Notes: a model not told the origin generated them from the sequence alone. Positions 1,075 through 36,562 are shown, numbered from the stretch's first letter. The stretch: DNA of 38,909 nucleotides from Gemmatimonadota bacterium (GCA_009841165.1 VXMI01000062.1:9629-48537), one strand, 5' to 3'. Made by a program: numbers and translations.

Positions 1075-2277
1075 ATGCCGCGACAGCCCCGGGGATCCGC
1101 GCTCGCCGCCCGCGCCACCCCCCTCGCCGCTCGCGCCGTCAGTGTGAAGTCCAGCTTCCGCACCCGGATGCTCGAACTGGCCGCGGGGCTCGACGACATC
1201 ATCGCGCTGGGCCGGGGCGATCCGGATTTCGAGACGCCTCCCGCGATCGTGGCTGCGGGCGCGGATGCCCTGATCAGCGGCTACACGCACTACAGTCCGC
1301 CCGCCGGTTTGCCGGAACTCCGCAAGGCGATCGCGTTTCAGCTGAAACTTAACAATAATGTTAAGTATTCGACCGACCAGATCATTGTCACAAACGGTGC
1401 CCAGGAGGCGCTGCTGATCTCCATTCTCGCGCTGGTCGATCCCGGCGACGAGGTGATCCTCCAGGCCCCGCGCTTCAACGCCTTCGACTACATGGTCAAG
1501 CTGGCCGGCGGCCGGATCGTGGACGTGCCGACGCTGGAGGCGGACGACTACGCCCTCAGGACCGACGCCATCCGCGGGGTCCTCACAAAGTGTTCGAAAC
1601 TCCTGGTAATCGCGAATCCGAACAATCCCACCGGCGGACTCACCCCGCGCGCCGAACTGGAGCGCATCGCGAGGCTGGCCGTGGAACACGACCTGCTGGT
1701 CATCTCGGACGAGATCTACGAGAAGCTGATCTTCGGTGGGGCCGAGCACGTCAGCCTCGCGGCGCTGGACGGCATGTCCGAACGCACCGTGACCGTGAAC
1801 GGCTTCTCCAAGGCCTACGCGATGACCGGCTGGCGCGTCGGCTACCTGGCCGCGCCCGCCTGGATGATGGAGTCGGCCGTCGAGATCAAGCACACGCTGA
1901 GCATCTGCACCCCGCCGGCGCTGCAGCGCGGCGCGCTGGCGGCCCTGGAGAGCGGCGAGGCGTCGGTCGCCTCGATGCTGGCCGAATACGAGCGGCGGCT
2001 CGCGCTGGTGCTGGGCCGCCTCGACGACATGGGCATCTCTTACGGTTGTCCGGGCGGGGGAATGTACGTCTATGCGAACATTTCGAGCACCGGGCTCGAC
2101 GCCGAGACCTTCTGCCTCGAGCTGCTGCGCAAGGAACAGGTCATGGTCTTCCCCGGCACGATGTTCGCGGACCCGGCGAATCGGCACATCCGGATCACGC
2201 TGCTGTCGCCGTTGGAGTCCATGGAGAAGGCGCTGGAGCGGATGCAGCGGTTCGTGGAGCAGGCGCGTGACGACTAG
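1075..2277 (+). CDS. PLP-dependent class I/II aminotransferase
   Basis: A 400-residue fold-type I aminotransferase of normal length, cytoplasmic. Visible motifs are GRGDPDFETP near residue 47, THYSPPAGLPELR (71-83), TNGAQEALL (107), NPNNPTGG (181-188), SDEIYEKLIF (211-220, with the PLP-contacting Asp and Tyr) and FSKAYAMTGWRVGY, whose Lys246 forms the Schiff base. A C-terminal arginine in HIRITLLSP would bind the substrate carboxylate. It would move an amino group between an amino acid and a 2-oxo acid; aspartate/aromatic aminotransferase-like enzymes are closest in pattern. ATG 1075 was chosen because it follows the upstream stop by 5 bases and gives a full domain; the frame stays open further upstream only as an overlap. 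Residues 91-99 (KLNNNVKYS) are encoded by an AT-rich island containing a perfect 7-bp inverted repeat, unlike the rest of the gene. A close relative lies at 28400-29593. Confidence 0.93.
   Translation: MPRQPRGSALAARATPLAARAVSVKSSFRTRMLELAAGLDDIIALGRGDPDFETPPAIVAAGADALISGYTHYSPPAGLPELRKAIAFQLKLNNNVKYSTDQIIVTNGAQEALLISILALVDPGDEVILQAPRFNAFDYMVKLAGGRIVDVPTLEADDYALRTDAIRGVLTKCSKLLVIANPNNPTGGLTPRAELERIARLAVEHDLLVISDEIYEKLIFGGAEHVSLAALDGMSERTVTVNGFSKAYAMTGWRVGYLAAPAWMMESAVEIKHTLSICTPPALQRGALAALESGEASVASMLAEYERRLALVLGRLDDMGISYGCPGGGMYVYANISSTGLDAETFCLELLRKEQVMVFPGTMFADPANRHIRITLLSPLESMEKALERMQRFVEQARDD
1348..1365. repeat. AT-rich perfect inverted repeat inside the aminotransferase gene
   Basis: The arms CTTAACA and TGTTAAG are separated by ATAA. 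They sit in about 30 bases of A/T-rich sequence within a strongly GC-rich gene and encode the codons for LNNNVK. It could be a protein-binding site or a chance result of an Asn/Lys-rich loop. Function unknown. Confidence 0.5.
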
Positions 2278-2318
2278 TACAGTATCTGACATTTCGAATT
2301 GCTATTTCAAAACATCAT

Positions 2319-2334
2319 GATAATTTGCATTACA
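2319..2334 (+). promoter_or_regulatory. Candidate -10 element for the AAA/DUF4143 ATPase gene
   Basis: GATAAT at 2319-2324 matches the -10 consensus at 5 of 6 positions and lies 9 bases before ATG 2334. The whole 2278-2340 stretch is AT-rich compared with its surroundings. No good -35 hexamer is visible at the usual distance and no Shine-Dalgarno sequence precedes the ATG, so a near-leaderless transcript is possible. Confidence 0.35.
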
Positions 2335-3512
2335 TGTTCAAAAGATCACTGCCCTTGCCCGACGCGGGCACGGAGACGTTCTTCCTCTGGGGGCCACGCC
2401 AGGCCGGGAAGAGCACCCTCCTGCGAGAGCACTATCCGGATGCTCGCTGGATCGACCTGCTGAAGAGCGACGAGTTCCGGCGCTACCTGACCAACCCGGA
2501 ATACCTGCGCCAGGAAATCGAGGCGGAGGGGTTCGACCGCAGCCGCCAGGTGGTAGTCGATGAGATACAGAAGGTGCCGGCACTCCTGGACGAGGTACAC
2601 TGGCTCATGGAGAACCGGGGCGTCAGTTTCGCACTCTGCGGATCCAGTGCCACCAAGGTCAAGCGCGGTGCCGCCAACCTCCTCGGAGGACGAGCCATCC
2701 GCTACGAGTTGCTTGGGATCACCGCAAGAGAACTGACTGATGACTTCGACCTGACTCGACTGCTGAACACCGGGTACCTGCCTCGCATCTACCAGGCCCC
2801 CCGCTCCGTCCGCCTCCTGGATGCCTATATCAATGACTACCTCGTGCAGGAGGTCGCTGCCGAGGGGGTCGTCCGGAAACTCCCCGCCTTCTCGCGCTTT
2901 CTGGACGCGGCCTCGTTGAGCGACGGGGAGGTCGTCAACGTCTCGAATATCGCTGCGGAGTGCGGAGTCTCGCAGCACACGGCAAAAAACTACTTCCAGG
3001 TCCTCGTGGACATGCTGTTGGCTCGCTGGGTTCCCTCCTATCGTTCACGCCCGAAGCGGCGCGTCATTCAGGCCCCGAAGTTCTATTTCGCCGATGTTGG
3101 CATCGTGAACCGGCTCGCACGGCGTGGTCCGCTGGCATCCGGCTCGGAGTTGTACGGAAAGGCTTTCGAAAACTGGGTATGCCACGAGTTGTCCGCGTGG
3201 CTAAGCTACCGCGATTTCGATGGTGGACTCTCGTATTGGCGGCTGGCTGGCGGCACCGAGGTGGACTTCATCGTTGGCAACATGCTACTTGCGGTTGAGG
3301 CCAAGGCCAGCCCGAACATCGGCTCACGTCACCTCCGAGGGCTCCGTAGCGTCATCCGCGATCACCCCTCACTCAAGCGGCGAGTCATCGTCTGCCTGGA
3401 GGCTCGCCCCCGGCGTACACGTGACGGCATCGACATTCTGCCCGCCGCTGACTTCGTCCGGCAGCTCTGGGACGACCGCCTCGTGAGCCCGCTGGTACGT
3501 CCACCGTACTGA
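2334..3512 (+). CDS. AAA_14 ATPase with C-terminal DUF4143 (PD-(D/E)XK-like) domain
   Basis: A 392-residue protein with the standard two-part layout of this family. The N-terminal P-loop ATPase has Walker A GPRQAGKS (20-27), Walker B VVVDEIQ (73-79) and a sensor-like LCGSSATKVKRG. Next comes a winged-helix-like stretch (VSNIAAECGVSQHTAKNYF). The C-terminal DUF4143 part has a nuclease-like signature, with Asp311 in TEVDFIV and Glu322/Lys324 in AVEAKAS. The biological role of the family is not settled; such genes often sit alone and look mobile. ATG 2334 is preferred over the in-frame TTG at 2325. G+C is visibly lower than in the neighbours, and the gene separates an aminotransferase from a Gfo/Idh gene, which suggests acquisition. 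Its TGA overlaps the ATG of the next gene by one base, so downstream translation may be coupled. Confidence 0.88.
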   Translation: MFKRSLPLPDAGTETFFLWGPRQAGKSTLLREHYPDARWIDLLKSDEFRRYLTNPEYLRQEIEAEGFDRSRQVVVDEIQKVPALLDEVHWLMENRGVSFALCGSSATKVKRGAANLLGGRAIRYELLGITARELTDDFDLTRLLNTGYLPRIYQAPRSVRLLDAYINDYLVQEVAAEGVVRKLPAFSRFLDAASLSDGEVVNVSNIAAECGVSQHTAKNYFQVLVDMLLARWVPSYRSRPKRRVIQAPKFYFADVGIVNRLARRGPLASGSELYGKAFENWVCHELSAWLSYRDFDGGLSYWRLAGGTEVDFIVGNMLLAVEAKASPNIGSRHLRGLRSVIRDHPSLKRRVIVCLEARPRRTRDGIDILPAADFVRQLWDDRLVSPLVRPPY

Positions 3513-4609
3513 TGGCGAATCCGGTCCGCATCGCCCTCGTCGGCGCCGGGGTCCGCGGCCAGGTCTGGGCGCGCGTCATCGCCGAGACCCCCGGCGCGAC
3601 GCTCGCCGGGATTGCGGATCGCGACAAAGCCCGGGCCCGGCATGCCCGCGATGATTTCGCCCCGGGAGCCCTCGTGCGCCGAGACCTCGCCTCCGCGCTG
3701 GCCGACGCCAACGTGGACGCCGATGCCGTCGTCATCGCCACCCCGCCCGCCACCCATCACCGCCTCGTCAGCCGCGCCCTCGCCCACGGTCTCCATGTGC
3801 TCTGCGAAAAGCCGCTCTCGGAGGACCTGGACGAAGTCGTCGACCTGATCGCGCGGGCCGACGCAGCCAGGCGTCACCTGCTCGTCGGAATGAACTTCCG
3901 CTACCTCCCGTCGTCGCAGCGCATACGCCGCTACGTCCTGGACGGGCACCTGGGCGCGCTGAGTCATGCGCACTTCACCTACCACAGACAGCGCGACGGC
4001 AACAGGGACGACCTGAACGACTACGTCATGTCGATGACGCATCCGATGCTGCTGGAACAGAGCATCCACCACTTCGATCTGCTGCGCTATTGCTACGGCG
4101 TGGAGGTCGAGTCGCTCGTGTGCGACTCCTGGCGGCCTTCGTGGAGCACCTATGCCGGCGACTGCTGCGTCTCGGTGCTGTTCCGCTTCGAGAACGGGGT
4201 GCGCGCCAACTACCTGGGGACGTGGACGGCGGCGTGGAACCGGATGGAATTCCGCTGGCGCAGCGACTTCGAGCGCGGGGCCCTCATTCAGCGCGAGCAG
4301 TTCGACGATCTCGTGCGCGTCGATTTCGAGCGCGGGCTGGGACTCAGCGGGTCCAACTTCAAGGGGGCGGACGAGGCGGAGGTGCCGGTCGTGGAGCCGC
4401 TCGAGCCTTGCGCGCCGTTCGTGGACGACACACGGGGGCTGCTTGCCGAGTTGCTGGGGGCCGTGCGCGGGGAGTTGGATCCTGAGACAGAGGGCGGCGA
4501 TCACCTCGAGAGCCTGCTCCTGGTGCAAGCGTGCATCGAGTCGCTCGGGACCGGAGGATGGGTGAAGTTGCGGGAACTGCGAGATCGCTTCTCCCTGGCG
4601 CCTGCCTGA
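3512..4609 (+). CDS. Gfo/Idh/MocA family NAD(P)-dependent oxidoreductase
   Basis: A 365-residue cytoplasmic dehydrogenase-type protein. The N-terminal Rossmann fold carries GAGVRG (11-16), followed by VIATPPATHH and the family motif CEKPLSED, whose lysine is the conserved catalytic-site residue. The C-terminal alpha/beta domain has EQSIHHFDLLRY, with the second conserved histidine. Family members oxidise or reduce sugars, inositols, glycosides and related alcohols using NAD(P); the substrate here cannot be assigned. The ATG overlaps the previous stop by one base, and the stop overlaps the next ATG in the same way (TGATG), so it is tightly coupled to the ABC ATPase genes. That context weakly suggests it works on something imported by that transporter. 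Confidence 0.9.
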   Translation: MANPVRIALVGAGVRGQVWARVIAETPGATLAGIADRDKARARHARDDFAPGALVRRDLASALADANVDADAVVIATPPATHHRLVSRALAHGLHVLCEKPLSEDLDEVVDLIARADAARRHLLVGMNFRYLPSSQRIRRYVLDGHLGALSHAHFTYHRQRDGNRDDLNDYVMSMTHPMLLEQSIHHFDLLRYCYGVEVESLVCDSWRPSWSTYAGDCCVSVLFRFENGVRANYLGTWTAAWNRMEFRWRSDFERGALIQREQFDDLVRVDFERGLGLSGSNFKGADEAEVPVVEPLEPCAPFVDDTRGLLAELLGAVRGELDPETEGGDHLESLLLVQACIESLGTGGWVKLRELRDRFSLAPA

Positions 4610-5640
4610 TGCCCGGTCCATCGGACGCCCTGCTGCGGGTTCGCGGCCTGCACACCCGCTTCCTGACCGACCATGGCGTCGTCCACGCGGTCAACGACGT
4701 GAGCTTTTCCGTGCGGCGCGGCGAAACCCTGGCGCTGGTCGGCGAGAGCGGCTGCGGCAAGACCGCGGCCATGCTCTCCGTGCTGCGGCTGCTTCCCGCC
4801 CGGCGGGCGCGTGTCGACGCCGACGAGGTGACGTTTCGCGGGCGCGACCTTCTCGCGCTCGACGACGAGGGAATGCGGCGCGTGCGAGGCGCCGAGGTCG
4901 CGATGATCTTCCAGGATCCCCGAGCGTCGCTCAATCCCGTGCTCACCATCGGGCGACAGCTCACCGAGAGCCTGCAGGTGCATCTCGGGCTGGGGCGGCG
5001 TGAAGCCCGGGAGTGCGCGGTCGAACTGCTGGATTCGGTCGGGATCCCGCGCGCGAACGAGCGGATCGACGACTACCCGCATCAGTTCTCGGGCGGAATG
5101 TGCCAGCGGGTGACGATCGCGATGGCGCTTGCCTGCGATCCGGTCCTGCTTATCGCGGATGAGCCGACCACAGCGCTGGACGTAACCGTCCAGGCACAGA
5201 TTCTGGATCTCGTTACCGAGTTGAGGGCCGAGCGGCGGATGGCGATGATCTGGATCAGCCACGACCTCAGCGTGGTGGCGGGCCTGGCCGACCGGGTTGC
5301 CGTGATGTACGCCGGTTCGATCGTCGAGACCGCGCCGGTGGGGCGGCTGTTCGACGCTCCGGCGCATCCGTACACCCGCGCGCTGCTTGCGTCCCTGCCC
5401 GCACTCGGTGATGGCGGCCGGAAACACCTGACGGCGATCCGGGGGCAGCCGCCCGATATGATTACCCCCCCGGGGGGGTGTACCTTTGCGGAGCGATGTC
5501 CGCACGTCTTTGAGCGGTGCAAACGCGATTTGCCGCCGCTGCTTGAGGTGGGGGAGGGTGCGCGGGCCGCCTGTTGGTGGGATGTGGGGTTGCGGCGGGA
5601 GCGAACGCCGGACGGAAGCCGCGACAGCCATGTCTGCTGA
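4609..5640 (+). CDS. Oligopeptide/dipeptide-type ABC transporter ATP-binding protein (OppD/DppD-like)
   Basis: A 343-residue nucleotide-binding subunit on the inner face of the membrane. Motifs are Walker A GESGCGKT (45-52), Q-loop QDPRASLNP, signature FSGGMCQR (from 160; the usual LSGGQ has become FSGGM, common in this subfamily), Walker [13 protein letters not shown] and the H-loop ISHDLSVV. The C-terminus holds the cysteine-containing extension of the oligo/dipeptide family ([14 protein letters not shown] and ACWW), often associated with an Fe-S or structural role. ATG 4609 overlaps the preceding stop; an ATG at 4531 in the same frame lies inside the previous gene and was not used. The next gene is the partner OppF-like ATPase. 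No permease or binding-protein gene is in view, so the rest of the transporter must be elsewhere. Confidence 0.92.
5464..5479. repeat. C7G7 palindrome inside the OppD-like gene
   Basis: Seven C followed by seven G, flanked by A and T, form a perfect 16-bp palindrome. It encodes the Thr-Pro-Pro-Gly-Gly stretch before the C-terminal cysteine motif. It is probably a coding coincidence in a GC-rich gene, but homopolymer runs of this length are prone to slippage. Confidence 0.5.
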
Positions 5641-6436
5641 GCCCCTCCTCGAAGTCATCGACCTGAAGAAGCACTTCCCGGTGCGCCGGGGGGCGATGCA
5701 GCGCCAAACAGGATCCGTTCGGGCCGTCGACGGAGTCAGCTTCCGGCTTGAACGGGGCGAGACGCTCGGACTGGTGGGCGAAAGCGGTTGCGGCAAGACG
5801 ACGACGGCCCGCGCGGTCCTCTGCCTGACGCGCCCCAACTCCGGCCGTGTCGTCTTCGACGGTGTCGATGTCGGGCGGGCAACGGCCCGCGAACTGCGGG
5901 CGCTGCGTCCGCGCATGCAGATGGTATTCCAGGACTCGTATTCGTCACTGAACCCGCGCCGCACCGTGGGCCGCTCGATCGCGGAGCCTCTGCTGCAGCA
6001 CACGAAGCTGAGCCGCATGGAACGCAACGAGCGGGTCGCCGAACTGCTGAACTTCGTCGGGATCGATCCCGCCCTGGCAACGCGCATGCCGCACGAGTTC
6101 TCGGGCGGCCAGCGGCAACGGGTCGGAATCGCGCGAGCCCTGGCGCTGAGGCCCGACCTGATCGTCTGCGACGAACCCATCTCATCGCTCGACATCTCGA
6201 TCCAGGCCCAGATCGTCAACCTGCTCGCAGACATCCAGGACCGGTTCGGGCTGACCTGCCTCTTCATCTCCCACGACCTGAGGATGGTAAGGCATCTGTG
6301 TGACCGGGTGGCGGTCATGCACCGGGGGAAGATCGTGGAGACGCAGCCGACCGAAACGCTATTCCGGAAGCCGGAGCATCCCTACACACGGGCGTTGCTG
6401 TCGGCGGTGCCGCGCATGCCGGGCCGCGCGTCGTGA
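5630..6436 (+). CDS. Oligopeptide/dipeptide-type ABC transporter ATP-binding protein (OppF/AppF-like)
   Basis: A 268-residue ATPase that pairs with the preceding OppD-like subunit. Motifs are Walker A GESGCGKT (50-57), Q-loop [10 protein letters not shown], signature [15 protein letters not shown], Walker [13 protein letters not shown] and H-loop ISHDLRMV. It ends shortly after [10 protein letters not shown], so the cysteine-rich C-terminal extension seen in its partner and in many OppF proteins is shortened or missing. ATG 5630 lies inside the end of the previous gene (11-base overlap) and gives the normal N-terminus; the frame is open further upstream but reads non-homologous sequence. It would hydrolyse ATP to drive import of peptides or peptide-like compounds. 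The next gene overlaps it by 4 bases. Confidence 0.92.
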
Positions 6437-7836: not shown

Positions 7837-10800
7837 ATGAGCCACCCGCGCAAAGCCATCCTTGCCGGGGCAGTTCTGGCAGGCGTCGCCTGGGTCGTCG
7901 GCTGTGGTGACGGCACGACGGATCCTGCGCGGCCACCCGAGGTTCCCGTGCCGGCGACGATCACGATGAGCCCGGCCTCGGCCGAGCTGACAGCGGTAGG
8001 CGAGACCGTGCAACTGAGTGCCGAGGTCCGCGACCAGAACGGCCGGGTCATGAGCCGGGCCGCCGTGACGTGGGTGAGCGTCAGCAACGCGGTGGCGAGG
8101 GTGGACGCGGCGGGGCTCGTCACGGCGGTTGGCAACGGGACCTCCACGATCAGCGCAACGGCCGGGTCGGCCTCGGGGAGCGCCGAGGTGACCGTGGCGC
8201 AAGCCGTGAAGGGGATAGAGGTGTTGCCCGCCCTCGGCAAAGTGTCCGCAGGCGACACCCTGCGCCTGAGCGCGGAGGCCTGGGACGCGAACGGGCATAC
8301 GGTGCGTGGCGGCGAATTCACATGGTCGTCGAGCAACTCCGCCGTCGCTGCCGTGGATGAGTCGGGTCTGGTTCACGGGATCGTCGAGGGCGTCGTCACC
8401 ATCACGGCTACGTCGGCAGGAGTGCCGGGCACGGCAGCGGTTACGGTAGCCCACGCCGACTGGGGCCCGCTCGCGGCGTTCTACGAGGCCACGCAGGGTC
8501 AAGGCTGGATAGAAGACGACGGCTGGATGTCGGATCGGCCGATCGGCGAGTGGCATGGAGTGACAACCGGGCCGGATGGTCACGTCACCGCGCTGGAACT
8601 CGCTTCGAGCCACCTGACCGGGAGCATCCCGGCGGAATTGGGCCGCCTGTCACACCTTGAGACCCTGCATCTCCAGTGGAATCGGTTGCGGGGGCCGATT
8701 CCCGCTGAACTGACCAGGCTGCTGAACCTCAGGAGTCTGCGCCTTGACGTGAACGGCCTGGTCGGGGAAATTCCGGCCGAATTGGCCAACCTGGCCAGGC
8801 TGCAGGACCTGCGGCTGAACCACAATTTCCTTTCCGGCCAGATTCCGCCCCAACTGGGCAGTCTGCCCAATCTCACGAGGCTCAGTATCCAGGGAAACGA
8901 CCTGACCGGTCTGGTTCCCTCCGCCTTCACGCGATTCGAACGGCTCCGGTTTTTCCACTTCAGGGACAACGAATACCCATGTATTCCCGACGAAACCGAT
9001 TTCATTCGGTGGCTGCAGCGGCTTGACGTTGCGCTCGGACCCGTATGCAACGAGGACGACAGGAAAGCGCTCGTTTCGCTCTACGAGGGCACCGGGGGAA
9101 GCGAATGGACTCGCTCCGACGGCTGGCTCGATGACGTGCCGGTGAGCGAATGGCACGGCGTGACCACCGATTCGTTGGGGCGGGTGCTCGCGCTCGATCT
9201 GGCCGACAACGGGCTTGCGGGTTCCCTGCCGGAACTGTTGGCACCGCTCACGCGCATGACTTCTCTTCGGCTGGACGGAAACGAGGGACTGACGGGTCCC
9301 CTGCCGCTGACGCTGTCCGCGCTCTCGCTCGAAGCGCTGGAATACCGACACACCGGCCTGTGCATTCCCACGGGCGAATCGTTTGCCGGATGGCTGGCCG
9401 CAATTCCCTTGCACGAAGGCACGGACGCCGACTGTTCGTCCCCGTCGGACCGGGAAGTCCTCGAACTCCTGTACAGTGCTGTCGGTGGTCCCGAATGGAA
9501 GGACGACGGGAACTGGCTTTCGTCCCATCCCCTCGGTGTGTGGACCGGAGTGGAGACCGACGCGGCCGGCCGCGTAATCGCGCTGCGGCTTCCCCGCAAC
9601 GGTTTGGCGGGCCGCCTTCCACCCCGGCTGGGCTACCTGGACGCGCTCCGCGAACTGGACGTGTCCGGCAACCGCCTGGACGGACCGATCCCGGCCCAGT
9701 TGGGCGACCTGTCCAGCCTCACACTGCTGAATCTCGGCCAGAACGAACTGGAGGGACCGATCCCTCCACGGTTGGGCGATCTGTCCAACCTTTCGCAGTT
9801 GCTGCTGTGGGCGAACGAGCTGGAGGGACCGATCCCGCCGGAGCTGGGCAAACTGACCGGCCTTCTCGTGCTGGGGCTCGGGTTCAACAGGCTTGAAGGA
9901 CCGATCCCTCCGCAGTTGGGCGGCCTTGCCAACCTCTACTTTCTATACCTGGACGGCAATCGCCTGGAGGGCCCGATCCCGTCGCAACTCGGCAACCTGG
10001 CCAGGTTGCACGAGCTGATTCTCAATCGCAATCGGCTCACGGGATCGATTCCTTCGTGGCTTGGCAGCCTGCCGACCCTGACGCGTGTCGGGCTCGGCGA
10101 GAACTGGCTGACCGGGTCCATCCCGCCCGAGTTGGGCAACCTGCCCCACCTGAGCGAGCTGGTCCTCGGTCGCAATCTGCTGACGGGGTCGATTCCGGCG
10201 AGGCTGGCCAGCCTGTCTGCATTGGCAAAGCTGGATCTCAGCCGGAACAGGCTGACCGGCAACATCCCGTCGGAGTTGGGCGCCTTGTCCAGCCTGGAGC
10301 GCCTCAACCTCAGCACGAACGAACTGGAAGGACGGATTCCCGCCGAACTGGGCAATCTGTCCAGGTTGCAGACGCTCTCTTTGGCCGGGAACGGGCTGTC
10401 CGGTGCGCTCCCGTCTGTCCTGGGCGGGCTCACCGGTCTGGAGCGGCTCCACCTGACCGACAATGCCGAGGTATCGGGGACCCTGCCTGCCGGCCTGACC
10501 GCCCTGGGCGAGCTGGAGGAACTGATTCTGACGGGTACAGGTCTGTGTGCCCCTGCGGACACCGCCTTCCAGAACTGGCTGTCGGAAGTTGAGGTGGCGC
10601 GGGTGCGTGCCTGTGAAGTGGACGTGGGGTCGGCGGCGTACCTGACCCAGGCGGTCCAGTCGCTGGACTTCCCCGTTCCGCTGATCGCCGGCAGAGAGGC
10701 GCTGCTCAGGGTGTTCGTGGTGGCTTCGATCCCAGGCGTCGAAGGCATCCCGATGGTGCGCGCGACCTTCTACCTCGATGGCGAGGAAAGGCTCGCCGTC

Positions 10801-12123
10801 GAAATCCCGGGCTCGGGGACGCCCCTCCCCACCGAGATCGAAGACGCCCGGAGTTCGTTGCAGGGGTCGGCCAACGTGACGGTCCCCGGATGGGTGATCC
10901 AACCGGGATTGGAGATGGTCGTCGAGATCGATCCCGACGGAACGCTGGATCCGGGATTGCGCGTGACCAAGCGGATTCCCGAGGAGGGCAGGGCTCCCGT
11001 GCAGGTGGAGTCGCTGCCCAGCCTGGATCTGACGGTGGTCCCGTTCCAATGGGCACCGAAGCCCGACTCGTGGATCGTGGATCTGGCTGCGGGCATGGCT
11101 GCAGACCCGGAAACGCACGAAATGCTCGGCGACACGCGCGCGATGCTCCCTGTTGCCGATGTGGACGTGGAAGTCCACGAAGCCGTCCTGACCTCGACGA
11201 CCGAGTCTCTGGACCTGCTTCGCGAGACACATCTGATTCGGACGCTGGAGAGCGGTACGCGCTACTACATGGGGATCCTCCCCGAACACGTCGTCGGGGC
11301 CGCGGTGGGGGTTGCGTTCCTTGGCTTCCGAATCGGCTATTCGGTGGCCGATCCCTTTGTGATCGCGCACGAACTCGGACACAACATGGGTCTTTCGCAT
11401 GCGCCCTGCGGAGGGGCCGGCGGCCCGGACCCGGCGTTCCCCCGGACGGATGCCTCGATCGGCTCCTGGGGATACGACTCGCGCGACGGTGGGAGACTGG
11501 TATCACCGCGGACTCGGGACCTGATGTCCTATTGCGGTCCACCGAGGTGGGTGAGCGAGTTCAGTTTTACCAAGGCACTGGAGCATCGCCTCACGGGGGA
11601 TGGGAGCCGGGGTCCGTTTGCGCCAGCCGCCCCGTACGCCCCCACGAGGAGCCTGATTCTCTGGGGCGGTCTGGACGACGAAGGGAATCCGTTCCTGGAG
11701 CCCGCCTTCGTGACCGACGCCACGCCTACCGCTCCCCGATCCGGCGGTAACTACGAAGTCGTCGGCCGGAGCGCAGGCGGCAACGAGGTGTTTTCCCTCA
11801 GCTTCGACATGGCGGAACTGGCTGACGCTGTGGCGGGGTCGTCCTTTGTCCTCGCGCTGCCGATACAGACCGATTGGCCGGGCATGCCGGAGAGCATTAC
11901 GCTGTCGGGTCCGGGAGGATCGACCACCACGGACCGGATGACCAACCGGCCCATGGCAATCCTCCGCGATTCGGCCAGCGGCGAGGTGCGGGGGATCCTG
12001 CGCGGCGAGGACGCAGCCGACCTGATCGGCGTGGCTGCCGACGCTGTCGGGCCGGCCGGGCCGGGTCTGCAGGTGCTGTTCAGCCGGGGGATACCGATTG
12101 ACACGGACGGGACCGGGTACTAA
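7837..12123 (+). CDS. Giant lipoprotein: BIG2-like Ig domains, plant-type LRRs and metzincin-type zinc protease (copy A)
   Basis: A 1428-residue exported protein. The signal peptide ends in a lipobox with Cys23 (VVGC). Two bacterial Ig-like (BIG2) domains span about 38-122 and 123-206. Three LRR modules follow, each opened by an aromatic cap ending in W[HT]GV (Trp239, 439, 569), like the N-terminal cap of plant LRR proteins. The repeats are about 24 residues with the consensus NxLxGxIPxxLGxL; the third module holds about 13. A linker domain (about 930-1150) leads to HELGHNMGLSH at 1178-1188, a complete HExxHxxGxxH zinc site, with a candidate Met-turn DLMSYCG (Met1230). A C-terminal beta-rich domain closes the protein. 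It is predicted to be a membrane-anchored protease with a protein-binding repeat region; target unknown. A paralogue begins 37 bases downstream. The domain calls are strong; the combination is one I do not recognise as a named family. Confidence 0.88.
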   Translation: MSHPRKAILAGAVLAGVAWVVGCGDGTTDPARPPEVPVPATITMSPASAELTAVGETVQLSAEVRDQNGRVMSRAAVTWVSVSNAVARVDAAGLVTAVGNGTSTISATAGSASGSAEVTVAQAVKGIEVLPALGKVSAGDTLRLSAEAWDANGHTVRGGEFTWSSSNSAVAAVDESGLVHGIVEGVVTITATSAGVPGTAAVTVAHADWGPLAAFYEATQGQGWIEDDGWMSDRPIGEWHGVTTGPDGHVTALELASSHLTGSIPAELGRLSHLETLHLQWNRLRGPIPAELTRLLNLRSLRLDVNGLVGEIPAELANLARLQDLRLNHNFLSGQIPPQLGSLPNLTRLSIQGNDLTGLVPSAFTRFERLRFFHFRDNEYPCIPDETDFIRWLQRLDVALGPVCNEDDRKALVSLYEGTGGSEWTRSDGWLDDVPVSEWHGVTTDSLGRVLALDLADNGLAGSLPELLAPLTRMTSLRLDGNEGLTGPLPLTLSALSLEALEYRHTGLCIPTGESFAGWLAAIPLHEGTDADCSSPSDREVLELLYSAVGGPEWKDDGNWLSSHPLGVWTGVETDAAGRVIALRLPRNGLAGRLPPRLGYLDALRELDVSGNRLDGPIPAQLGDLSSLTLLNLGQNELEGPIPPRLGDLSNLSQLLLWANELEGPIPPELGKLTGLLVLGLGFNRLEGPIPPQLGGLANLYFLYLDGNRLEGPIPSQLGNLARLHELILNRNRLTGSIPSWLGSLPTLTRVGLGENWLTGSIPPELGNLPHLSELVLGRNLLTGSIPARLASLSALAKLDLSRNRLTGNIPSELGALSSLERLNLSTNELEGRIPAELGNLSRLQTLSLAGNGLSGALPSVLGGLTGLERLHLTDNAEVSGTLPAGLTALGELEELILTGTGLCAPADTAFQNWLSEVEVARVRACEVDVGSAAYLTQAVQSLDFPVPLIAGREALLRVFVVASIPGVEGIPMVRATFYLDGEERLAVEIPGSGTPLPTEIEDARSSLQGSANVTVPGWVIQPGLEMVVEIDPDGTLDPGLRVTKRIPEEGRAPVQVESLPSLDLTVVPFQWAPKPDSWIVDLAAGMAADPETHEMLGDTRAMLPVADVDVEVHEAVLTSTTESLDLLRETHLIRTLESGTRYYMGILPEHVVGAAVGVAFLGFRIGYSVADPFVIAHELGHNMGLSHAPCGGAGGPDPAFPRTDASIGSWGYDSRDGGRLVSPRTRDLMSYCGPPRWVSEFSFTKALEHRLTGDGSRGPFAPAAPYAPTRSLILWGGLDDEGNPFLEPAFVTDATPTAPRSGGNYEVVGRSAGGNEVFSLSFDMAELADAVAGSSFVLALPIQTDWPGMPESITLSGPGGSTTTDRMTNRPMAILRDSASGEVRGILRGEDAADLIGVAADAVGPAGPGLQVLFSRGIPIDTDGTGY

Positions 12124-12160
12124 GTAGGCCGCAGGTCGGGTCGTCCTACCGGAGTTCACG

Positions 12161-15100
12161 ATGAGTCTGCCGCGCAACCACTTCCTGCTGTTGATCCTGC
12201 TCGCCGGCTTCGCCTGGACTTCCGCGTGCAGCGACGACACGATCGAGCCGCCCGAGCCTCCCCGCGCGACCGCGATTGCCGTGACCCCGGCGGCGGCCAC
12301 TCTGGCGGCACTGGCGGAAACCGTGCAGCTGAGCGCCGAGGTTCGCGACCAGAACGGGCGGGTGATGACTGGCGCCGCGGTGACCTGGGTGAGCACCAGC
12401 GCCGAGGTGGCGACGGTCGACGCGACCGGTCTGGTAACGGCAAGGGCGAACGGGACGGCGACGATCACCGCGACCGCGGGCGGGGCGTCGGGGAACTCGG
12501 CGGTTGCGGTGGCCCAGGAGGTAGTCGGGATAGAGGTAATGCCGGCTGGCGGAAGGGTGTCCGCGGGCGATACGGTCCAGATGACGGCGGAAGGCTGGGA
12601 CGCCAACGGGTTCACGGTGCCGGGGATGGAGTACACCTGGACATCGAGCGACACCTCGGTCGCCGCCGTGGATGGATCGGGGCTGGTGCGCGGCCTGGCC
12701 GAGGGTACGGTACTGATCACCGCGGCTCGGGCCGGCGTGAGTGGGCACGTGCTGTTGACCGTGGCCCACGAGGACTGGGGAGACCTGGTGACGTTCTACG
12801 AGGCTACGGACGGTCAGGGATGGATCGAAAACGACGGCTGGATGTCGGACCTGCCGATCGGTCAATGGCACGGGGTTACCACCGACGACACCGGTCACGT
12901 CACCGAGCTGATACTCTCTGCGAGCGATCTCGAGGGGCGGATCCCCCCTGAGTTGGGGAACCTGACCCGCCTGGAAGTGCTGAGTCTCGAGCGGAATTCG
13001 CTGAGGGGACCGATCCCCGCCAAACTGGGCAAGCTGCGCAACCTCAGGGCGCTCATCCTCGGAGTCAACGACCTTTCCGGATCGATTCCGGCCGAGATCG
13101 GCAATCTGGCCAGCCTGGAGGTGCTGAGACTTCGCAGAAACGACTTGACCGGGACGGTCCCGCCCGAATTGGGCAAGCTGCGCAATCTCACGCGACTCGG
13201 CCTGGACTGGAATAACCTTGTCGGGCCGATCCCTCTGGATCTGATGGGTCTGGACCGGCTTCGCGTCTTCCACTTCCCCGGCAACGAGTCGCTCTGTGCT
13301 CCCGGGTCGACGGACTTCGCGACGTGGCTCTTTCAGCTCGATGTGTTTGTGGGGCCGCTTTGCAACGAGGCTGACCGGGATGTCCTGGCCGCTCTGCACA
13401 ACGCCACCGGGGGAGAGGGTTGGAAGCGATCCGCCGGGTGGCTCGGCGACGGCCTCCTGGAGGAATGGCACGGCGTGGGCACCGATTCCCTCGGGCACGT
13501 CAGCACGCTCGACCTGTCAAACAACGATCTGGCGGGCCGCGTTCCAGCGGTCCTGGCACAACTTGCCGGCTTGACGTCGTTGCGAATCGACGCCAATGCC
13601 GGACTGACCGGTCCTCTGCCGCTGTCGCTCTCCGTGCTCCCGCTGAAGGAACTGCGATACCAGGGTACGGGGCTGTGCGTCCCGCCCGATGACTCGTTCG
13701 TCGAGTTCGTCGACACCATCCCATCCCACGAGGGCACGGGCGAGGAGTGTGCACCCCTCTCCGACCGGGAGGTCCTCGAGATCCTCTACACGGCCACCGG
13801 CGGCGACGACTGGGAGGACAACGAGAACTGGCTGTCCGACCTCCCTCTCGAGGAGTGGCAAGGAGTGTCGGCCGACGATGAGGGCCGAGTGGTCGGGGTG
13901 GCATTGCCCCGCAACAAGCTCGCGGGCACGATTCCCCCCGAGCTGGGCCACCTGTCCAACCTCTCCGAGCTGGATCTGAGCCTGAACGACTTGACCGGGC
14001 CGATCCCGGCGGAGTTGGCCGGATTGGCGAACCTGTCGCGGCTGAACCTTGCCTTGAACGGGCTCACGGGACCGATTCCCTCCGAACTCGGCAACATGCC
14101 GAGCCTGTCGTGGCTCGTGTTGGGTCGGAATCGCCTGACCGGGACGATCCCGCCGGAGCTGGGCGGCCTGTCCAGCCTGACGTTGATCTACCTCGACAAC
14201 AACAGGCTGACGGGCCTGATCCCGCCGGAGCTGGCTGACCTGTCCGGGCTATTGACGATGAATCTCAGCAACAATGAACTGTCGGGACCGATTCCACCCG
14301 AACTGGGAACCTTCCCGCAGATGTCGTGGCTGCGACTGAGCGGCAACCGCCTGACCGGTCCGATTCCGCTGGAACTGGGCAACCTGGCCGCCCTGGTCGA
14401 GCTGTACCTCCAGGACAACGAACTGACCGGGAGGATCCCGCCGGGACTGGGCAGCCTGTTGCTTCTGGAAGATCTGATCCTCCATGACAATCAGCTGACG
14501 GGACCGATCCCCGCCGATCTGGGTGCCGCGCCGAGCCTGTCCGCCTTGACCCTCGGTCGCAATCGGCTGACCGGGCCGATTCCGCCGGAGCTGGGCAACC
14601 TGTCGGGCCTGGAATACCTGTCCCTCACCGGGAACGAGCTGACGGGGCCGCTCCCTCCGGAGTTGGGCAGGCTGTCCAGCATGCGGACGCTCCACCTCGA
14701 CGGGAATGCGCTGAGCGGCCCGATCCCCGCCGAGTTCGGCAACCTGTCCAACATGTGGACGCTGTATCTGGACAGGAATGAACTGACGGGCGCCATTCCC
14801 CCCGAGTTCGGCAACCTGTCGCGACTCCAGACACTGTCGGCCATGGAAAACCGGCTTGCGGGCCCCCTGCCGACGGAGTTGGGTGGCATGACATCGCTGC
14901 GGCGGCTCCACCTGACCGGCAACGCCGCACTTTCCGGCGTCCTGCCTTCGGGCATGACGACGCTTGCCCGCCTCGACGAGCTTCTCGTGGGTGGTACCGG
15001 GCTCTGCGCTCCCGCGGATACCACGTTCGGGGACTGGATTTCCGGGGTCACGGTTGCCCGCGTGCGCCCCTGCGAGGCTGCCGCCGTGTCGTCCGCCTAC

Positions 15101-16570
15101 CTGACGCAGGCGGTACAGTCGCGCGACGTTCCGGTCCCCCTCGTCGCGGGCAGGCAGGCGATGCTGCGAGTCTTTCCGACGGCTTCGCGGCCAACGGAGG
15201 AAGGCATCCCGACCGTGCGGGCGACCTTCTTCGTCGATGGCACCGAGACGCATGTGGTCGAGATCCCGAACTCGAACGTTCACATCCCCACCGAGGTCGA
15301 GTACGCGGAGAGCGCACTCGAAAGGTCCGCGAATGCGATCATACCGGCGTCGGTGATTCGGCCCGGTCTGGAGATGGTGGTCGAAATCGACCCGGACAAC
15401 ACGCTGGATCCGGGACTCGGGGTGACCGCGCGGATCCCCGAGGCGGGTCGTGCCGCGATCCTGGTACGGGATGTGCCCGCGCTGGACCTCACATTCGTGC
15501 CGTTTCAATGGATGCGGGACCGGGACTCGTCGATCGCGGGCGTTGCCCGCGCCATGTCCGCCGACCCCCGGAACCACGAGATGCTGGCCGATACGCGGGC
15601 AATGCTCCCGGTCGGCGAACTCGACGTGAAGGCTCATGAACCCGTCCTGACCTCGACCAACAACACCATTGAACTCCTGATCGAGACCAACCTGATCAAG
15701 CGCATGGAAGGCGGGGGCGGCTACTACATGGGCATCATGCCGGAACGCATCGTCGGCGGCCAGTCGGGGGTCGCATTTCTCGGTTACGGGGCGGGCTTCT
15801 CGGCTGCCGACGGGTTCGTGATTGCCCACGAACTGGGACACAACTTCGCTCTCTACCACGCACCGTGCGGGGGCGCCGGCGGCCCGGACCGGGCGTTCCC
15901 CCAGTCGAACGGGTCCATCGGCAACTGGGGATACGACTTCCGTGACGGGGGCGCCCTGGTGCCTCCGCACGCCCGGGACCTGATGTCGTACTGCGGTCCC
16001 CCCAGGTGGGTGAGCGACTACAGTTTCGCTCGGGCCCTGGGCTATCGCCTCGCAATTGAAAACAGTACCAGCCGGTCTACCGCAGGCGCTCCCACCCGCT
16101 CCGTCCTGCTCTGGGGTGGCGTGGACGCACACGGCAATCCGTTCCTTGAGCCTGCGTTCGTGGCGGACGCGTCACCGTCTGCTCCGCAGATCACCGGGGA
16201 CTACGAACTGACCGGTCGAGCCGCGACCGGAGAGGCACTGTTCTCGCTCAACTTCGACATGCTGGAGATGGCCGACACCGACGGGTGGTTGTCGTTCGTG
16301 CTGGCGCTGCCACTGCGAGACGAGTGGGCCGGCACGCTGGAGAGCATCACGCTGTCCGGTCCCGGCGGTTCGACCACGATGGACGGAACGACCGACAGGC
16401 CCATGGCGGTCCTCCTCGATCCCGACAGCCGTCAGGTGCGCGCGATCCTGCGTGGCGAGGATGCGACCGATCTGTCCGAAGTGGCTGCAGATGCCGCAGG
16501 TCCGATCGCGGTCCCTCCCCGGGTGATCTTCAGTCGCGGGATTCCCGATGCGGTCGCGCGGCGGCGGTAG
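12161..16570 (+). CDS. Giant lipoprotein: BIG2-like Ig domains, plant-type LRRs and metzincin-type zinc protease (copy B)
   Basis: A 1469-residue paralogue of the preceding gene with the same order of parts. It has a lipobox with Cys23 (TSAC), two BIG2-like domains sharing VQLSAEVRDQNGRVM with copy A, three capped LRR modules, a linker and a zinc protease. The third LRR module has about 15 repeats against about 13 in copy A, which explains most of the 41-residue difference. The zinc motif is HELGHNFALYH (1223-1233): all three histidines and the glutamate are kept, but the usual glycine of HExxHxxGxxH is alanine. The Met-turn DLMSYCG (Met1275) lies 42 residues after the third histidine, as in copy A. 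A GGAG Shine-Dalgarno sequence (12151-12154) stands 6 bases before the ATG. No separate promoter is obvious, so it is probably co-transcribed with copy A. Its stop is 6 bases from the convergent amidase stop. Confidence 0.88.
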   Translation: MSLPRNHFLLLILLAGFAWTSACSDDTIEPPEPPRATAIAVTPAAATLAALAETVQLSAEVRDQNGRVMTGAAVTWVSTSAEVATVDATGLVTARANGTATITATAGGASGNSAVAVAQEVVGIEVMPAGGRVSAGDTVQMTAEGWDANGFTVPGMEYTWTSSDTSVAAVDGSGLVRGLAEGTVLITAARAGVSGHVLLTVAHEDWGDLVTFYEATDGQGWIENDGWMSDLPIGQWHGVTTDDTGHVTELILSASDLEGRIPPELGNLTRLEVLSLERNSLRGPIPAKLGKLRNLRALILGVNDLSGSIPAEIGNLASLEVLRLRRNDLTGTVPPELGKLRNLTRLGLDWNNLVGPIPLDLMGLDRLRVFHFPGNESLCAPGSTDFATWLFQLDVFVGPLCNEADRDVLAALHNATGGEGWKRSAGWLGDGLLEEWHGVGTDSLGHVSTLDLSNNDLAGRVPAVLAQLAGLTSLRIDANAGLTGPLPLSLSVLPLKELRYQGTGLCVPPDDSFVEFVDTIPSHEGTGEECAPLSDREVLEILYTATGGDDWEDNENWLSDLPLEEWQGVSADDEGRVVGVALPRNKLAGTIPPELGHLSNLSELDLSLNDLTGPIPAELAGLANLSRLNLALNGLTGPIPSELGNMPSLSWLVLGRNRLTGTIPPELGGLSSLTLIYLDNNRLTGLIPPELADLSGLLTMNLSNNELSGPIPPELGTFPQMSWLRLSGNRLTGPIPLELGNLAALVELYLQDNELTGRIPPGLGSLLLLEDLILHDNQLTGPIPADLGAAPSLSALTLGRNRLTGPIPPELGNLSGLEYLSLTGNELTGPLPPELGRLSSMRTLHLDGNALSGPIPAEFGNLSNMWTLYLDRNELTGAIPPEFGNLSRLQTLSAMENRLAGPLPTELGGMTSLRRLHLTGNAALSGVLPSGMTTLARLDELLVGGTGLCAPADTTFGDWISGVTVARVRPCEAAAVSSAYLTQAVQSRDVPVPLVAGRQAMLRVFPTASRPTEEGIPTVRATFFVDGTETHVVEIPNSNVHIPTEVEYAESALERSANAIIPASVIRPGLEMVVEIDPDNTLDPGLGVTARIPEAGRAAILVRDVPALDLTFVPFQWMRDRDSSIAGVARAMSADPRNHEMLADTRAMLPVGELDVKAHEPVLTSTNNTIELLIETNLIKRMEGGGGYYMGIMPERIVGGQSGVAFLGYGAGFSAADGFVIAHELGHNFALYHAPCGGAGGPDRAFPQSNGSIGNWGYDFRDGGALVPPHARDLMSYCGPPRWVSDYSFARALGYRLAIENSTSRSTAGAPTRSVLLWGGVDAHGNPFLEPAFVADASPSAPQITGDYELTGRAATGEALFSLNFDMLEMADTDGWLSFVLALPLRDEWAGTLESITLSGPGGSTTMDGTTDRPMAVLLDPDSRQVRAILRGEDATDLSEVAADAAGPIAVPPRVIFSRGIPDAVARRR

Positions 16571-33980: not shown

Positions 33981-34043
33981 TCTGCGGGACCACTCGGGGC
34001 ATCTGCGGGACCACTCAGGGGATCTGCGGGACCACTCAGGGGA
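33981..34043. repeat. Three tandem 21-bp repeats overlapping the end of the choice-of-anchor gene
   Basis: The unit TCTGCGGGACCACTCAGGGG plus a final A occurs three times (33981-34001, 34002-34022, 34023-34043). The first copy differs at two positions. The stop codon of the upstream minus-strand gene (34038-34036) lies within the third copy, so the repeat reaches into its last codons. A likely product of slippage; no known repeat family. Confidence 0.8.
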
Positions 34044-36402
34044 TCAGCCGCCGCGCCCTCGGCCGCACAATGAACAGCCCCTCCCTCCGGCTCGACAGCA
34101 GCACCGTCCCGCTCTCGAAGTAGGGGTACACGCTCCACGTACCGTCGAAGCCCGCTTCGTCCCTGCTCCACGGCGTCGTGTCGAAATGCCCCAGCTCGGT
34201 GGGGTTCTCGGGATCGCTGATGTCGAGCACGCGCAGCCCGGCCCGGTTGTTCGACATGTAGAGCCGGTCGCCGTGGACGTAGAGGTTGTGGTCCGTGGCG
34301 TTGGTGGGGTTCATGTACTCGCTGAGGAGCAGGGGGTCGTCGAGGTCCTGCAGGTCCCAGATCAGCGTGCGTGTGGCTTCGACCAGGCCGCCCACCTCGT
34401 CCAGCTCGTCGTTCGAATAGAAGTAGCGGTGGTCCTCGGTGAGCCAGCCCTGGTGCGCGTACGCGACGTTGGGGTAGTCGGCGGCGGCGACGGCGACGGG
34501 ACTGTCCTTGTCGGTTACGTCCGCAATCGACAGCGCGGTCTCGTTCGAGTTCACGCAGATCTCGCGGCCAACGTAGTCCTGGTCGGGTCCGTGGTAGATC
34601 ACGCACTGGGTGTCGTGCGAGTTGCCCGTGTTGCGGCGTCCCGTGTTGGGGTGGGCGAAGCAGCCCGCGAAGACGGGGTTGAGGGGATCGTTGATGTCCA
34701 CCATGTGGGACCCGCCCCCGCAGGTCTCGCCGCCGTCCGACGACCCGACCAGGTAGGCGAAGCCCGTCTCCTCGTTGATCGCCACGTTGTGCGACGACGC
34801 GATCCCGGTGTACATCGCGGTCGCGTCGAACTCCTGCGGCTCGGTGACGTCACGGAGCTGGGTGAGGTCGAAGATCTGCATCCCGTGCTGCCCCGCGCCG
34901 TCGGCGACGACGAAGGCGTGGTCCTTGAACACCTTGATGTCGCGCCAGCTGTTGGCGCGGCTGCCCTCGGTCATGGCCAGATTGCCGAGATAGCGGGGGT
35001 TGGAAGCATCGGTCACGTCCACGAACGCGGTCCCGTCCATCCGCCCGACGAGCGCGTATTCCCGCCCGGTTTCCGAATCGGTCCATCCCCACACGTCGTT
35101 GAGACGCGCGCCCCGTCCGGCGCCCAACTCCGCCCACGGGACGAACGAGAGCAGGTCCACGTGGTCGCAGTCGTAGCCGGCGGCATCGCCGTCGTCGCAG
35201 GGAATCTCGCCGCCGTTGATTGCGGGCAGGGGAGCATACTCGACCGTGAGGTGCCCGGTACGGGTCCAGCCCCCCGACTCGTCGGAGAAGACCGTGACGG
35301 CTCCCAGACCGAAGTCGGCGCCCGGATCGCCGAAGGCCGCGACGCCGTCGGCGAAGTCAAGCCGCCGGCTGCCGACCACGATCCGCCCGTCACCCGTGGC
35401 ATCGGACATCTCGGTGGCGCCCGTGAGGATCCATTCGTCGCCCTGCCGAGTGTAGGAAGACAGGAGCAACCCGCCGCCCACCAGCAGTGTGGCCCCGTCG
35501 GTCCCAAGCGACATGCCGAAGGCTTCGTCCCGATCGTCCTCGGGCGACAGGGTTCCGATCGCCGTCCAGGCGCCGTCGATCCTTGCAAACCGGTGCAATA
35601 GCGGCTGCCGGGGACCGCGCAGCGTCATTTGGCCGACAAGGACCTCATCTCCGGCCACGGCCACCGACAGGCCGAACATCGCGAATTCCGCGGCTTCGGC
35701 GTCGGGAGGAGCAAGCTCGGTCGCCGGCCCCCACGCTCCGGACGCGTCACGCTCGAATACGTGGGCCGCTCTGCCCGTCGCGCTCGCGCTCGCGAGCAGG
35801 CCGTCGCCCAGCGCGAACTGGTTGCCCACGTCGTCGGGCAGCGTGACCGTGGACCCACGCGACCACATTCCGTCGCCACCGAGCCCGAATGTCGCAAGCA
35901 CACGTCCGTCTGCCTCGCTGGTCGCGACGGCGATCATCTCGCCTCCGGAAGCCATCAGCGACGCGCCGAAGCCGTCCAGGCCCGCTCCCGCCAGCACCTG
36001 GATCGGCTCCGCGTCCCCGCTCCGAACCTCCGCAAGGCTGTAGACGTAGACCCGTCCTTCATCCCCGCCGTTCGCTCCGACAAGCAGATGGTCGCCCGAC
36101 CGCGCGAGCGCCCTGCCGAATCCGTCCCGAACCGCGGGCTCCGGCGCTCGCAAGGACCAGACCTCGGTCCATTCGCCGTCGAAGGCGTAGCCGCGCACGG
36201 TTCCCGGATCGCGCTCGTGCGCGGCCTCACCGACCAGCACCTGGCCGTCGGCCACCAGAACGGCCCCGCCGAACGCCTGGGCCGAGATCGAAGCGGGAGC
36301 GCCCAGGAACAGTCCGCCGAGCGCGAGAACGGCCGATACCCCCGGTGCGCTCGGAAAGCGCCTGCGGGGAAGCTGGTGAAAAACGGATTGCACAAAACGC
36401 AT
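34036..36402 (-). CDS. Secreted beta-propeller protein: FG-GAP-like N-terminus and choice-of-anchor B (LVIVD-type) C-terminus
   Basis: A 788-residue exported protein. A signal peptide with arginines (RRRF), a hydrophobic core LALGGLFLGAPA and a cleavage site near SAQA (about residue 42) starts it. The first half has repeating units such as RDGFGRALARSGDHLLVGA, DGFGASLMASGGEMIAVA and EAFGMSLGTDGATLLVGGG, as in FG-GAP-type propellers. The second half has the pattern of choice-of-anchor B proteins (GYDCDHVDLLSF, LNDVWGWTD, VDVTDASNPRYLG, NSHDTQC, DHNLYVHGDRLYMSNNRAGLRVLDISDPENP), similar to LVIVD repeats. The role is unknown; binding or display at the cell surface is likely. ATG 36402 has GGAGG 6 bases upstream. 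An inverted repeat lies at 36431-36451. It starts 160 bases after the VOC gene, probably its own unit. Confidence 0.85.
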   Translation of the reverse strand: MRFVQSVFHQLPRRRFPSAPGVSAVLALGGLFLGAPASISAQAFGGAVLVADGQVLVGEAAHERDPGTVRGYAFDGEWTEVWSLRAPEPAVRDGFGRALARSGDHLLVGANGGDEGRVYVYSLAEVRSGDAEPIQVLAGAGLDGFGASLMASGGEMIAVATSEADGRVLATFGLGGDGMWSRGSTVTLPDDVGNQFALGDGLLASASATGRAAHVFERDASGAWGPATELAPPDAEAAEFAMFGLSVAVAGDEVLVGQMTLRGPRQPLLHRFARIDGAWTAIGTLSPEDDRDEAFGMSLGTDGATLLVGGGLLLSSYTRQGDEWILTGATEMSDATGDGRIVVGSRRLDFADGVAAFGDPGADFGLGAVTVFSDESGGWTRTGHLTVEYAPLPAINGGEIPCDDGDAAGYDCDHVDLLSFVPWAELGAGRGARLNDVWGWTDSETGREYALVGRMDGTAFVDVTDASNPRYLGNLAMTEGSRANSWRDIKVFKDHAFVVADGAGQHGMQIFDLTQLRDVTEPQEFDATAMYTGIASSHNVAINEETGFAYLVGSSDGGETCGGGSHMVDINDPLNPVFAGCFAHPNTGRRNTGNSHDTQCVIYHGPDQDYVGREICVNSNETALSIADVTDKDSPVAVAAADYPNVAYAHQGWLTEDHRYFYSNDELDEVGGLVEATRTLIWDLQDLDDPLLLSEYMNPTNATDHNLYVHGDRLYMSNNRAGLRVLDISDPENPTELGHFDTTPWSRDEAGFDGTWSVYPYFESGTVLLSSRREGLFIVRPRARRLIP

Positions 36403-36430
36403 GGAAGCCTCCGAAGATCGATCAACAGAC

Positions 36431-36451
36431 AGATTCGCTGCCACCGAATCT
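36431..36451. promoter_or_regulatory. Inverted repeat upstream of the choice-of-anchor B gene
   Basis: Perfect arms AGATTCG and CGAATCT surround a 7-base spacer, 29 bases before ATG 36402 (minus). It may be an operator or a leader hairpin. The minus strand reads TAGATT here as a possible -10, with TTTCGC 16 bases before it as a weak -35. The 36403-36562 gap holds nothing else I can support. Confidence 0.4.
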
Positions 36452-36562
36452 ACGCCCGGAGGCCACTTGCGAAATCCCCGCCGCCTCGGGCAGCCGTCAC
36501 CGCAGCACGTGCGGCCGGACCAGGAACACACATTACCCACCAGGGCGCCCCGGCCCCAGCCG

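Follow-up and report, generated by a model that had tools for sequence, protein, structure and literature searches.

What does a bacterium gain from placing a plant-type leucine-rich repeat (LRR) array and a zinc protease on one predicted lipoprotein chain, and from keeping many versions of it? The question is raised by a 38,909-nucleotide stretch of DNA from a Gemmatimonadota bacterium (GCA_009841165.1, VXMI01000062.1:9629-48537; hereafter the window), in which two intact open reading frames (ORFs), genes A and B, share a strand and are separated by a gap of 37 nt. Each encodes, in order, a signal peptide with a lipobox, a pair of Big_2 domains, three LRR modules and, over its last ~460 residues, a C-terminal region that is 62% identical between B and A. 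We favor, at a probability of roughly 60%, the view that A and B are paralogous, lipid-anchored proteases guided by their LRRs, each with its own substrate, probably within the sponge holobiont. An earlier note, made from the sequence, had described two adjacent genes with one and the same uncommon architecture, and the ORFs, lipobox, Big_2, LRR and metzincin parts were all recovered here; its term "tandem" understates the scale, as the family is dispersed, with ~20 genes per genome.

The AlphaFold2 (AF2) model of the protease region, based on an alignment of 77 homologues, has a predicted local distance difference test score (pLDDT) of 90 and a predicted template modeling score (pTM) of 0.90. 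Its residues 119-318, a span covering the zinc motif and the Met-turn, align with ADAM8 at Z 14.8 (root-mean-square deviation 3.1, 169 residues; VIA-align), and the catalytic core also matches adamalysin II (Z 13.8), archaemetzincin (Z 13.6) and fragilysin (Z 12.8). The fold matches listed include neither StcE nor other M66 structures, which may nonetheless be similarly alike. The earlier note had proposed structure prediction and a profile search as checks on its protease assignment. In the former, the predicted catalytic domain adopts a metzincin fold that holds the active-site helix, the third ligand and the Met-turn. In the latter, the nearest Pfam family is PF10462 Peptidase_M66, which that note had not named; it is matched by all 77 aligned homologues at E-values up to 0.1 (best 1.4e-9), over approximately positions 175-245 of its 306, about a quarter of the profile. 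Against a gathering cut-off of 20.6 bits, A scores above (25.6) and B below (14.7), and 17 places in the window's own genome lie above it. The Reprolysin_3/4/5 matches of A and B all fall below the curated cut-off, and the three NCBIfam models that match do so weakly and for few members, none of them fitting.

The catalytic signature itself is retained far beyond the two genes. HExGH is present in 128 of 129 distinct copies, the third histidine in 127 of 128 and the Met-turn methionine in 121 of 128, at a spacing of 40-47 residues; since the third histidine and this methionine are kept across 128 homologues, the pair of motifs is not a chance occurrence. In both A and B the methionine of DLMSYC stands exactly 42 residues past the third histidine, just as the earlier note had counted. 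The defining metzincin motif is HExxHxx(G/N)xx(H/D), where the G/N is essential for the turn (PMC11674741). Gene A fits this motif in full (HELGHNMGLSH) and B departs from it, the alanine that had been noticed before occupying motif position 8, which is no zinc ligand. Over the 128 distinct copies this position is Ser in 55, Gly in 33, Asn in 23 and another residue in 17; judged by its sequences, the family has relaxed the textbook turn position with its zinc ligands retained. One own-genome copy, L120 (contig C3, ORF 1147-5793, + strand), reads HDLGH for HELGH, an exchange of the catalytic Glu for Asp, and is otherwise intact.

The recognition arm is of a kind familiar from plants. Strict LRR repeats number 18 in A and 19 in B, mostly in 24-residue steps, and the three capped modules with the NxLxGxIPxxLGxL consensus that had been claimed are borne out, a cysteine pair closing each of them. 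The best match of module 3 by sequence in the PDB is FLS2 (1.4e-186). Modeled together with the protease (pLDDT 88.6, pTM 0.76), this module forms a regular solenoid, closest in Foldseek to the ectodomains of MIK2 (1.7e-27), GSO1 and FLS2. Thus the arms of A and B have the 24-residue repeat, the N-cap and, as predicted, the solenoid fold of plant-type LRRs. The conserved Cys-paired LRR cap is followed immediately by the protease region, whose start is conserved too.

At the other end of the chain, the lipobox and the two BIG2-like domains reported earlier are present in both ORFs, with the lipobox cysteine at residue 23 (VVGC-GD in A, TSAC-SD in B) and Big_2 E-values of 3.6e-20 (A) and 1.3e-21 (B) for two domains each. 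Each protein holds nine cysteines at positions matching between A and B, namely the lipid cysteine and four pairs: one at each LRR module end and a fourth (1191/1233 in A, 1236/1278 in B) that spans from three residues past the third zinc histidine to the end of the Met-turn. Both partners of this fourth pair are kept in 74 of the 77 aligned homologues, and in A Cys1233 is probably paired with Cys1191. Because the cysteines are evenly paired, an oxidising, extracytoplasmic location is suggested for both proteins, which would be lipidated and exposed on the outer surface. An acidic residue at +3 occurs in 52 of 55 family N-termini; as a surface-export signal it is suggestive only, the comparison set of lipoproteins being small, impure and inadequate as a control. 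We know of no lipoprotein surface-export signal established for the phylum Gemmatimonadota.

Features of genes A and B and of the upstream transporter genes, in window coordinates
Feature	Position	Strand	Basis
Two overlapping oligopeptide-type ATP-binding cassette (ABC) transporter ATPase genes (ABC_tran + oligo_HPY)	4531-6433	+	profile matches
Gene A, whole ORF, predicted lipoprotein metalloprotease, 1428 aa	7837-12123	+	sequence, Pfam
A: signal peptide and lipobox VVGC, putative lipid Cys23, then GDG	7837-7905	+	sequence
A: two Big_2 Ig-like domains (stalk)	7960-8451	+	Pfam PF02368 3.6e-20, two stretches
A: LRR module 1, N-cap, Cys382/Cys404 C-cap	8452-9048	+	Pfam, sequence
A: LRR module 2 (short), Cys509/Cys533 C-cap	9049-9435	+	Pfam, sequence
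A: LRR module 3, plant-type, at least 12 strict repeats, Cys904/Cys926 C-cap	9436-10614	+	FLS2, AF2 solenoid, MIK2
A: beta-rich domain separating the LRR cap from the catalytic core, beginning with conserved AYLTQAVQS	10654-11001	+	AF2, conservation
A: predicted metzincin catalytic domain, M66-like	11002-11613	+	AF2 pLDDT 90, ADAM8 Z 14.8, PF10462 7.2e-6
A: zinc-binding motif HELGHNMGLSH	11368-11400	+	sequence, conservation
A: Met-turn DLMSYC	11518-11535	+	sequence, conservation
A: C-terminal beta-rich domain, family motif SRGIP near end	11641-12120	+	AF2 secondary structure, conservation
Gene B, whole ORF, 1469 aa, architecture as in A	12161-16570	+	sequence, Pfam
B: LRR modules 1 to 3, closed by Cys pairs 379/401, 506/530, 949/971	12767-15073	+	Pfam, sequence
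B: predicted metzincin catalytic domain	15461-16072	+	sequence, conservation
B: zinc motif HELGHNFALYH, Ala at turn position	15827-15859	+	sequence
B: Met-turn DLMSYC	15977-15994	+	sequence

Searches of the window's own genome gave 21 matches to the protease region, one of them partial; the family ORFs total 23,472 residues, or ~1.6% of 4.27 Mb. LRR-bearing ORFs (PF13855) number 26, of which 15 carry the protease and 11 do not (manual count from tables). In other genomes, where the earlier note had also proposed to look for the Big2-LRR-protease order, the protease region occurs in multiple copies in all 22 sampled genomes of the same genus (9-28 copies, with up to ~27 candidates scored per genome). 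Relatives at the order level either lack it or hold one or two divergent copies, and the scanned copies of distant relatives have no LRR. Across the phylum, 136 of 298 sampled Gemmatimonadota have a match (five candidates scored per genome). Only a few genera (g1, g9, g12, g33, g42 and g74) show a strong expansion to many copies, others having fewer and divergent ones; in g74, the group with Ca. Palauibacter denitrificans, all 12 listed genomes are expanded, and three genomes of g90, another genus in the window's family, reach E-values of only ~1e-5. Palauibacter rhopaloidicola has 20 copies and P. denitrificans 14. As a separate observation, frames of 1607-2129 aa on contigs C26 and C146 of genome G318 and C76 and C104 of G337 carry two protease matches each and are probably doubled enzymes.

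Apparent spread into Gammaproteobacteria (L021, L031, L038, L051, L053, L057) was rejected: in contig coordinates and ORF lengths the copies coincide with genomes of the window's family (e.g. RHO2_bin_50 with G252), so the record titles are probably wrong and the records likely Gemmatimonadota. Matches in Terriglobia and Vicinamibacteria (L063, L064) lie on contigs of 3.5-4.5 kb that may be binning errors, and were not used. Copies, most with LRRs, also occur in a group of Acidobacteriota (L159-L162, L164, L039) and in Rhodothermales (L065), with a patchy distribution among relatives. Four genomes around the acidobacterial G323 hold 2-11 high-scoring copies, nearly all other relatives holding zero, and one copy of this group nests within those of Gemmatimonadota in the tree. 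Because of this patchiness and nesting, transfer into the G323 group is probable, possibly between sponge symbionts, though binning error could also account for it.

In the FastTree phylogeny, many inner forks of which have modest support, the own-genome copies are dispersed and intermixed with copies of other species, so the duplications are old. Own-genome copies that lack LRRs branch low, and since distant copies are also LRR-less, fusion to the LRRs probably arose early in the expansion. Array length is fixed within orthologues and variable between paralogues, with a mean difference of 0.9 repeats among close homologues versus 6.8 among distant ones. All domains are under purifying selection (dN/dS <0.45), strongest in the metzincin domain (0.09-0.17), with the LRRs at ~0.2-0.26. 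Fast LRR diversification was rejected, as whole LRR regions stay below 0.3. A class of 33 LRR codons in B with dN/dS 4.7 involves about one synonymous change and was picked out post hoc, and we disregarded it. Stable array lengths and low dN/dS fit many fixed specificities better than rapid antigenic change. Between A and the copy L009, the LRR region (8452-10671, residues 206-945) has a dS of 0.11, about half the protease-domain value of 0.24, which could come from gene conversion or codon constraint.

As for the setting, the best matches are Gemmatimonadota metagenome-assembled genomes (MAGs) with names suggestive of sponge projects; the codes RHO, COS and APA would match three of the hosts that PMC8163846 sampled, Rhopaloeides, Coscinoderma and Aplysina. 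According to that study, LRR proteins are enriched in sponge-associated MAGs, those of sponge Gemmatimonadota included, the share of repeat proteins is higher in sponge than in seawater Gemmatimonadota, and few sponge lineages have secretion systems to deliver repeat proteins (PMC8163846). Lipid-anchored, self-contained proteases would require no injection.

We interpret A and B as members of such a set. Each would be tethered through its lipidated cysteine and Big_2 stalk; the plant-receptor-like LRR array, of paralogue-specific length, would bind a particular protein; and the M66-like zinc protease would then cut that protein or something held beside it. Keeping some 20 enzymes per genome would open many substrates to cleavage; the likeliest ones are extracellular proteins of the sponge and its microbiome, such as matrix proteins, mucus-like glycoproteins and defence receptors. 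Architecture, predicted folds, catalytic-site conservation, purifying selection, paralogue expansion and the array-length pattern are results of computation; lipidation, outer-surface exposure, catalytic activity, substrate binding by the LRRs and host targets are what we infer. Several points weigh against this interpretation. The LRRs could bind glycans or mediate cell-cell adhesion rather than pick substrates; position 8 is neither Gly nor Asn in 72 of 128 copies; the HDLGH copy may be impaired; neither a prodomain nor a latency mechanism could be recognised; a lipoprotein of a diderm may face the periplasm; and the sponge origin of the window is drawn from the record names of its relatives.

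General nutrition is the alternative that survives best, and we consider it unlikely: the enzymes would break down extracellular protein in bulk, such as sponge collagen or detritus, the LRRs only holding them there, and the peptides would be imported. Matrix or mucin proteins are frequent substrates of M66-like and ADAM-like enzymes, and the two oligopeptide-type ABC ATPase genes lie upstream of A, followed by a sugar lactone oxidase-like gene; an amidase lies downstream of the pair, all of these being ordinary genes. However, any given neighbor family is present at 6 or fewer of ~80 family loci, so that a conserved operon partner was rejected and the transporter link is only local; moreover, about twenty stably distinct arrays exceed the needs of bulk digestion. 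Elsewhere in the window, a 969-aa ORF (34036-36945, - strand) with an FG-GAP repeat match is possibly another surface protein.

Rather less probable still is that A and B are adhesins or receptors, the LRR arm being the main actor toward host, matrix or neighbors and the protease shedding or processing its own protein or being partly inactive. The eleven LRR ORFs without a protease region suggest that LRR binding may also act alone, and the Asp-for-Glu copy and the turn residue, unusual in many, point the same way; against this, constraint is strongest on the catalytic domain, its zinc ligands are almost invariant, and the protease also occurs without LRRs. Weapons or defences that spare the host and target the surface proteins of bacterial competitors, of protist predators or of phages are very improbable, for although LRR arrays are generic protein binders and the high-scoring copies in a few Acidobacteriota and one Rhodothermales MAG suggest exchange within the community, neither an immunity gene nor any other partner is found repeatedly nearby and the LRR dN/dS within orthologues is unlike an arms race.

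A broader picture, which we put forward tentatively and hold to be somewhat doubtful, is combinatorial surface proteolysis in animal symbionts, where ~20 proteases per cell would share a relaxed-turn module, each with its own stable LRR arm aimed at a specific sponge or holobiont protein, together making up most of the symbionts' LRR "eukaryote-like proteins". The LRR proteins of sponge symbionts have so far been counted without a known output. A predicted zinc protease closes more than half of this genome's LRR_8-bearing ORFs, so an enzyme assay and a substrate hunt can replace a vague idea of host interaction. The family would also be a metzincin family that has mostly abandoned the Gly/Asn turn residue.

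The earlier note knew of no named family with the Big2-LRR-metzincin order; there is no NCBIfam model for it, and no description was found in the literature searched, most subscription papers being outside that search. The parts are known; none of the sources searched appears to describe their combination, the scale on which it occurs or the relaxation of the turn residue. Among sponge symbionts, LRR, ankyrin and TPR proteins have been described as eukaryote-like repeat proteins, with LRR enrichment in sponge Gemmatimonadota MAGs; that study counts repeat proteins, and its main text contains neither "peptidase" nor "protease" and leaves a fused metalloprotease unmentioned (PMC8163846). With PF10462 Peptidase_M66, the StcE-type glycoprotein-specific metalloproteases, the A/B family has the HExxHxxGxxH metzincin in common, all 77 aligned members matching the profile, B below its cut-off; its own hallmarks are the HAPC...MSYC cysteine pair and the beta-rich domains on either side of the core. 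To our knowledge, StcE is without an LRR arm. The ADAM/adamalysin enzymes (M12B reprolysins) provide the closest solved folds of the catalytic core and, as modular enzymes whose binding domains are separate, a good functional parallel; identity is ~15%, no prodomain or disintegrin domain is recognised in A and B, the flanking domains are other ones, and A and B are predicted bacterial lipoproteins. The ectodomains of the plant LRR receptor kinases FLS2, MIK2 and GSO1 have in common with A and B the 24-residue NxLxGxIPxxLGxL repeat, the WxGV-type N-cap and the Cys-paired C-cap, but A and B carry no kinase and have as their output a predicted protease within the same polypeptide; if our interpretation is right, they are a natural case of plant-receptor-like arrays steering a protease.

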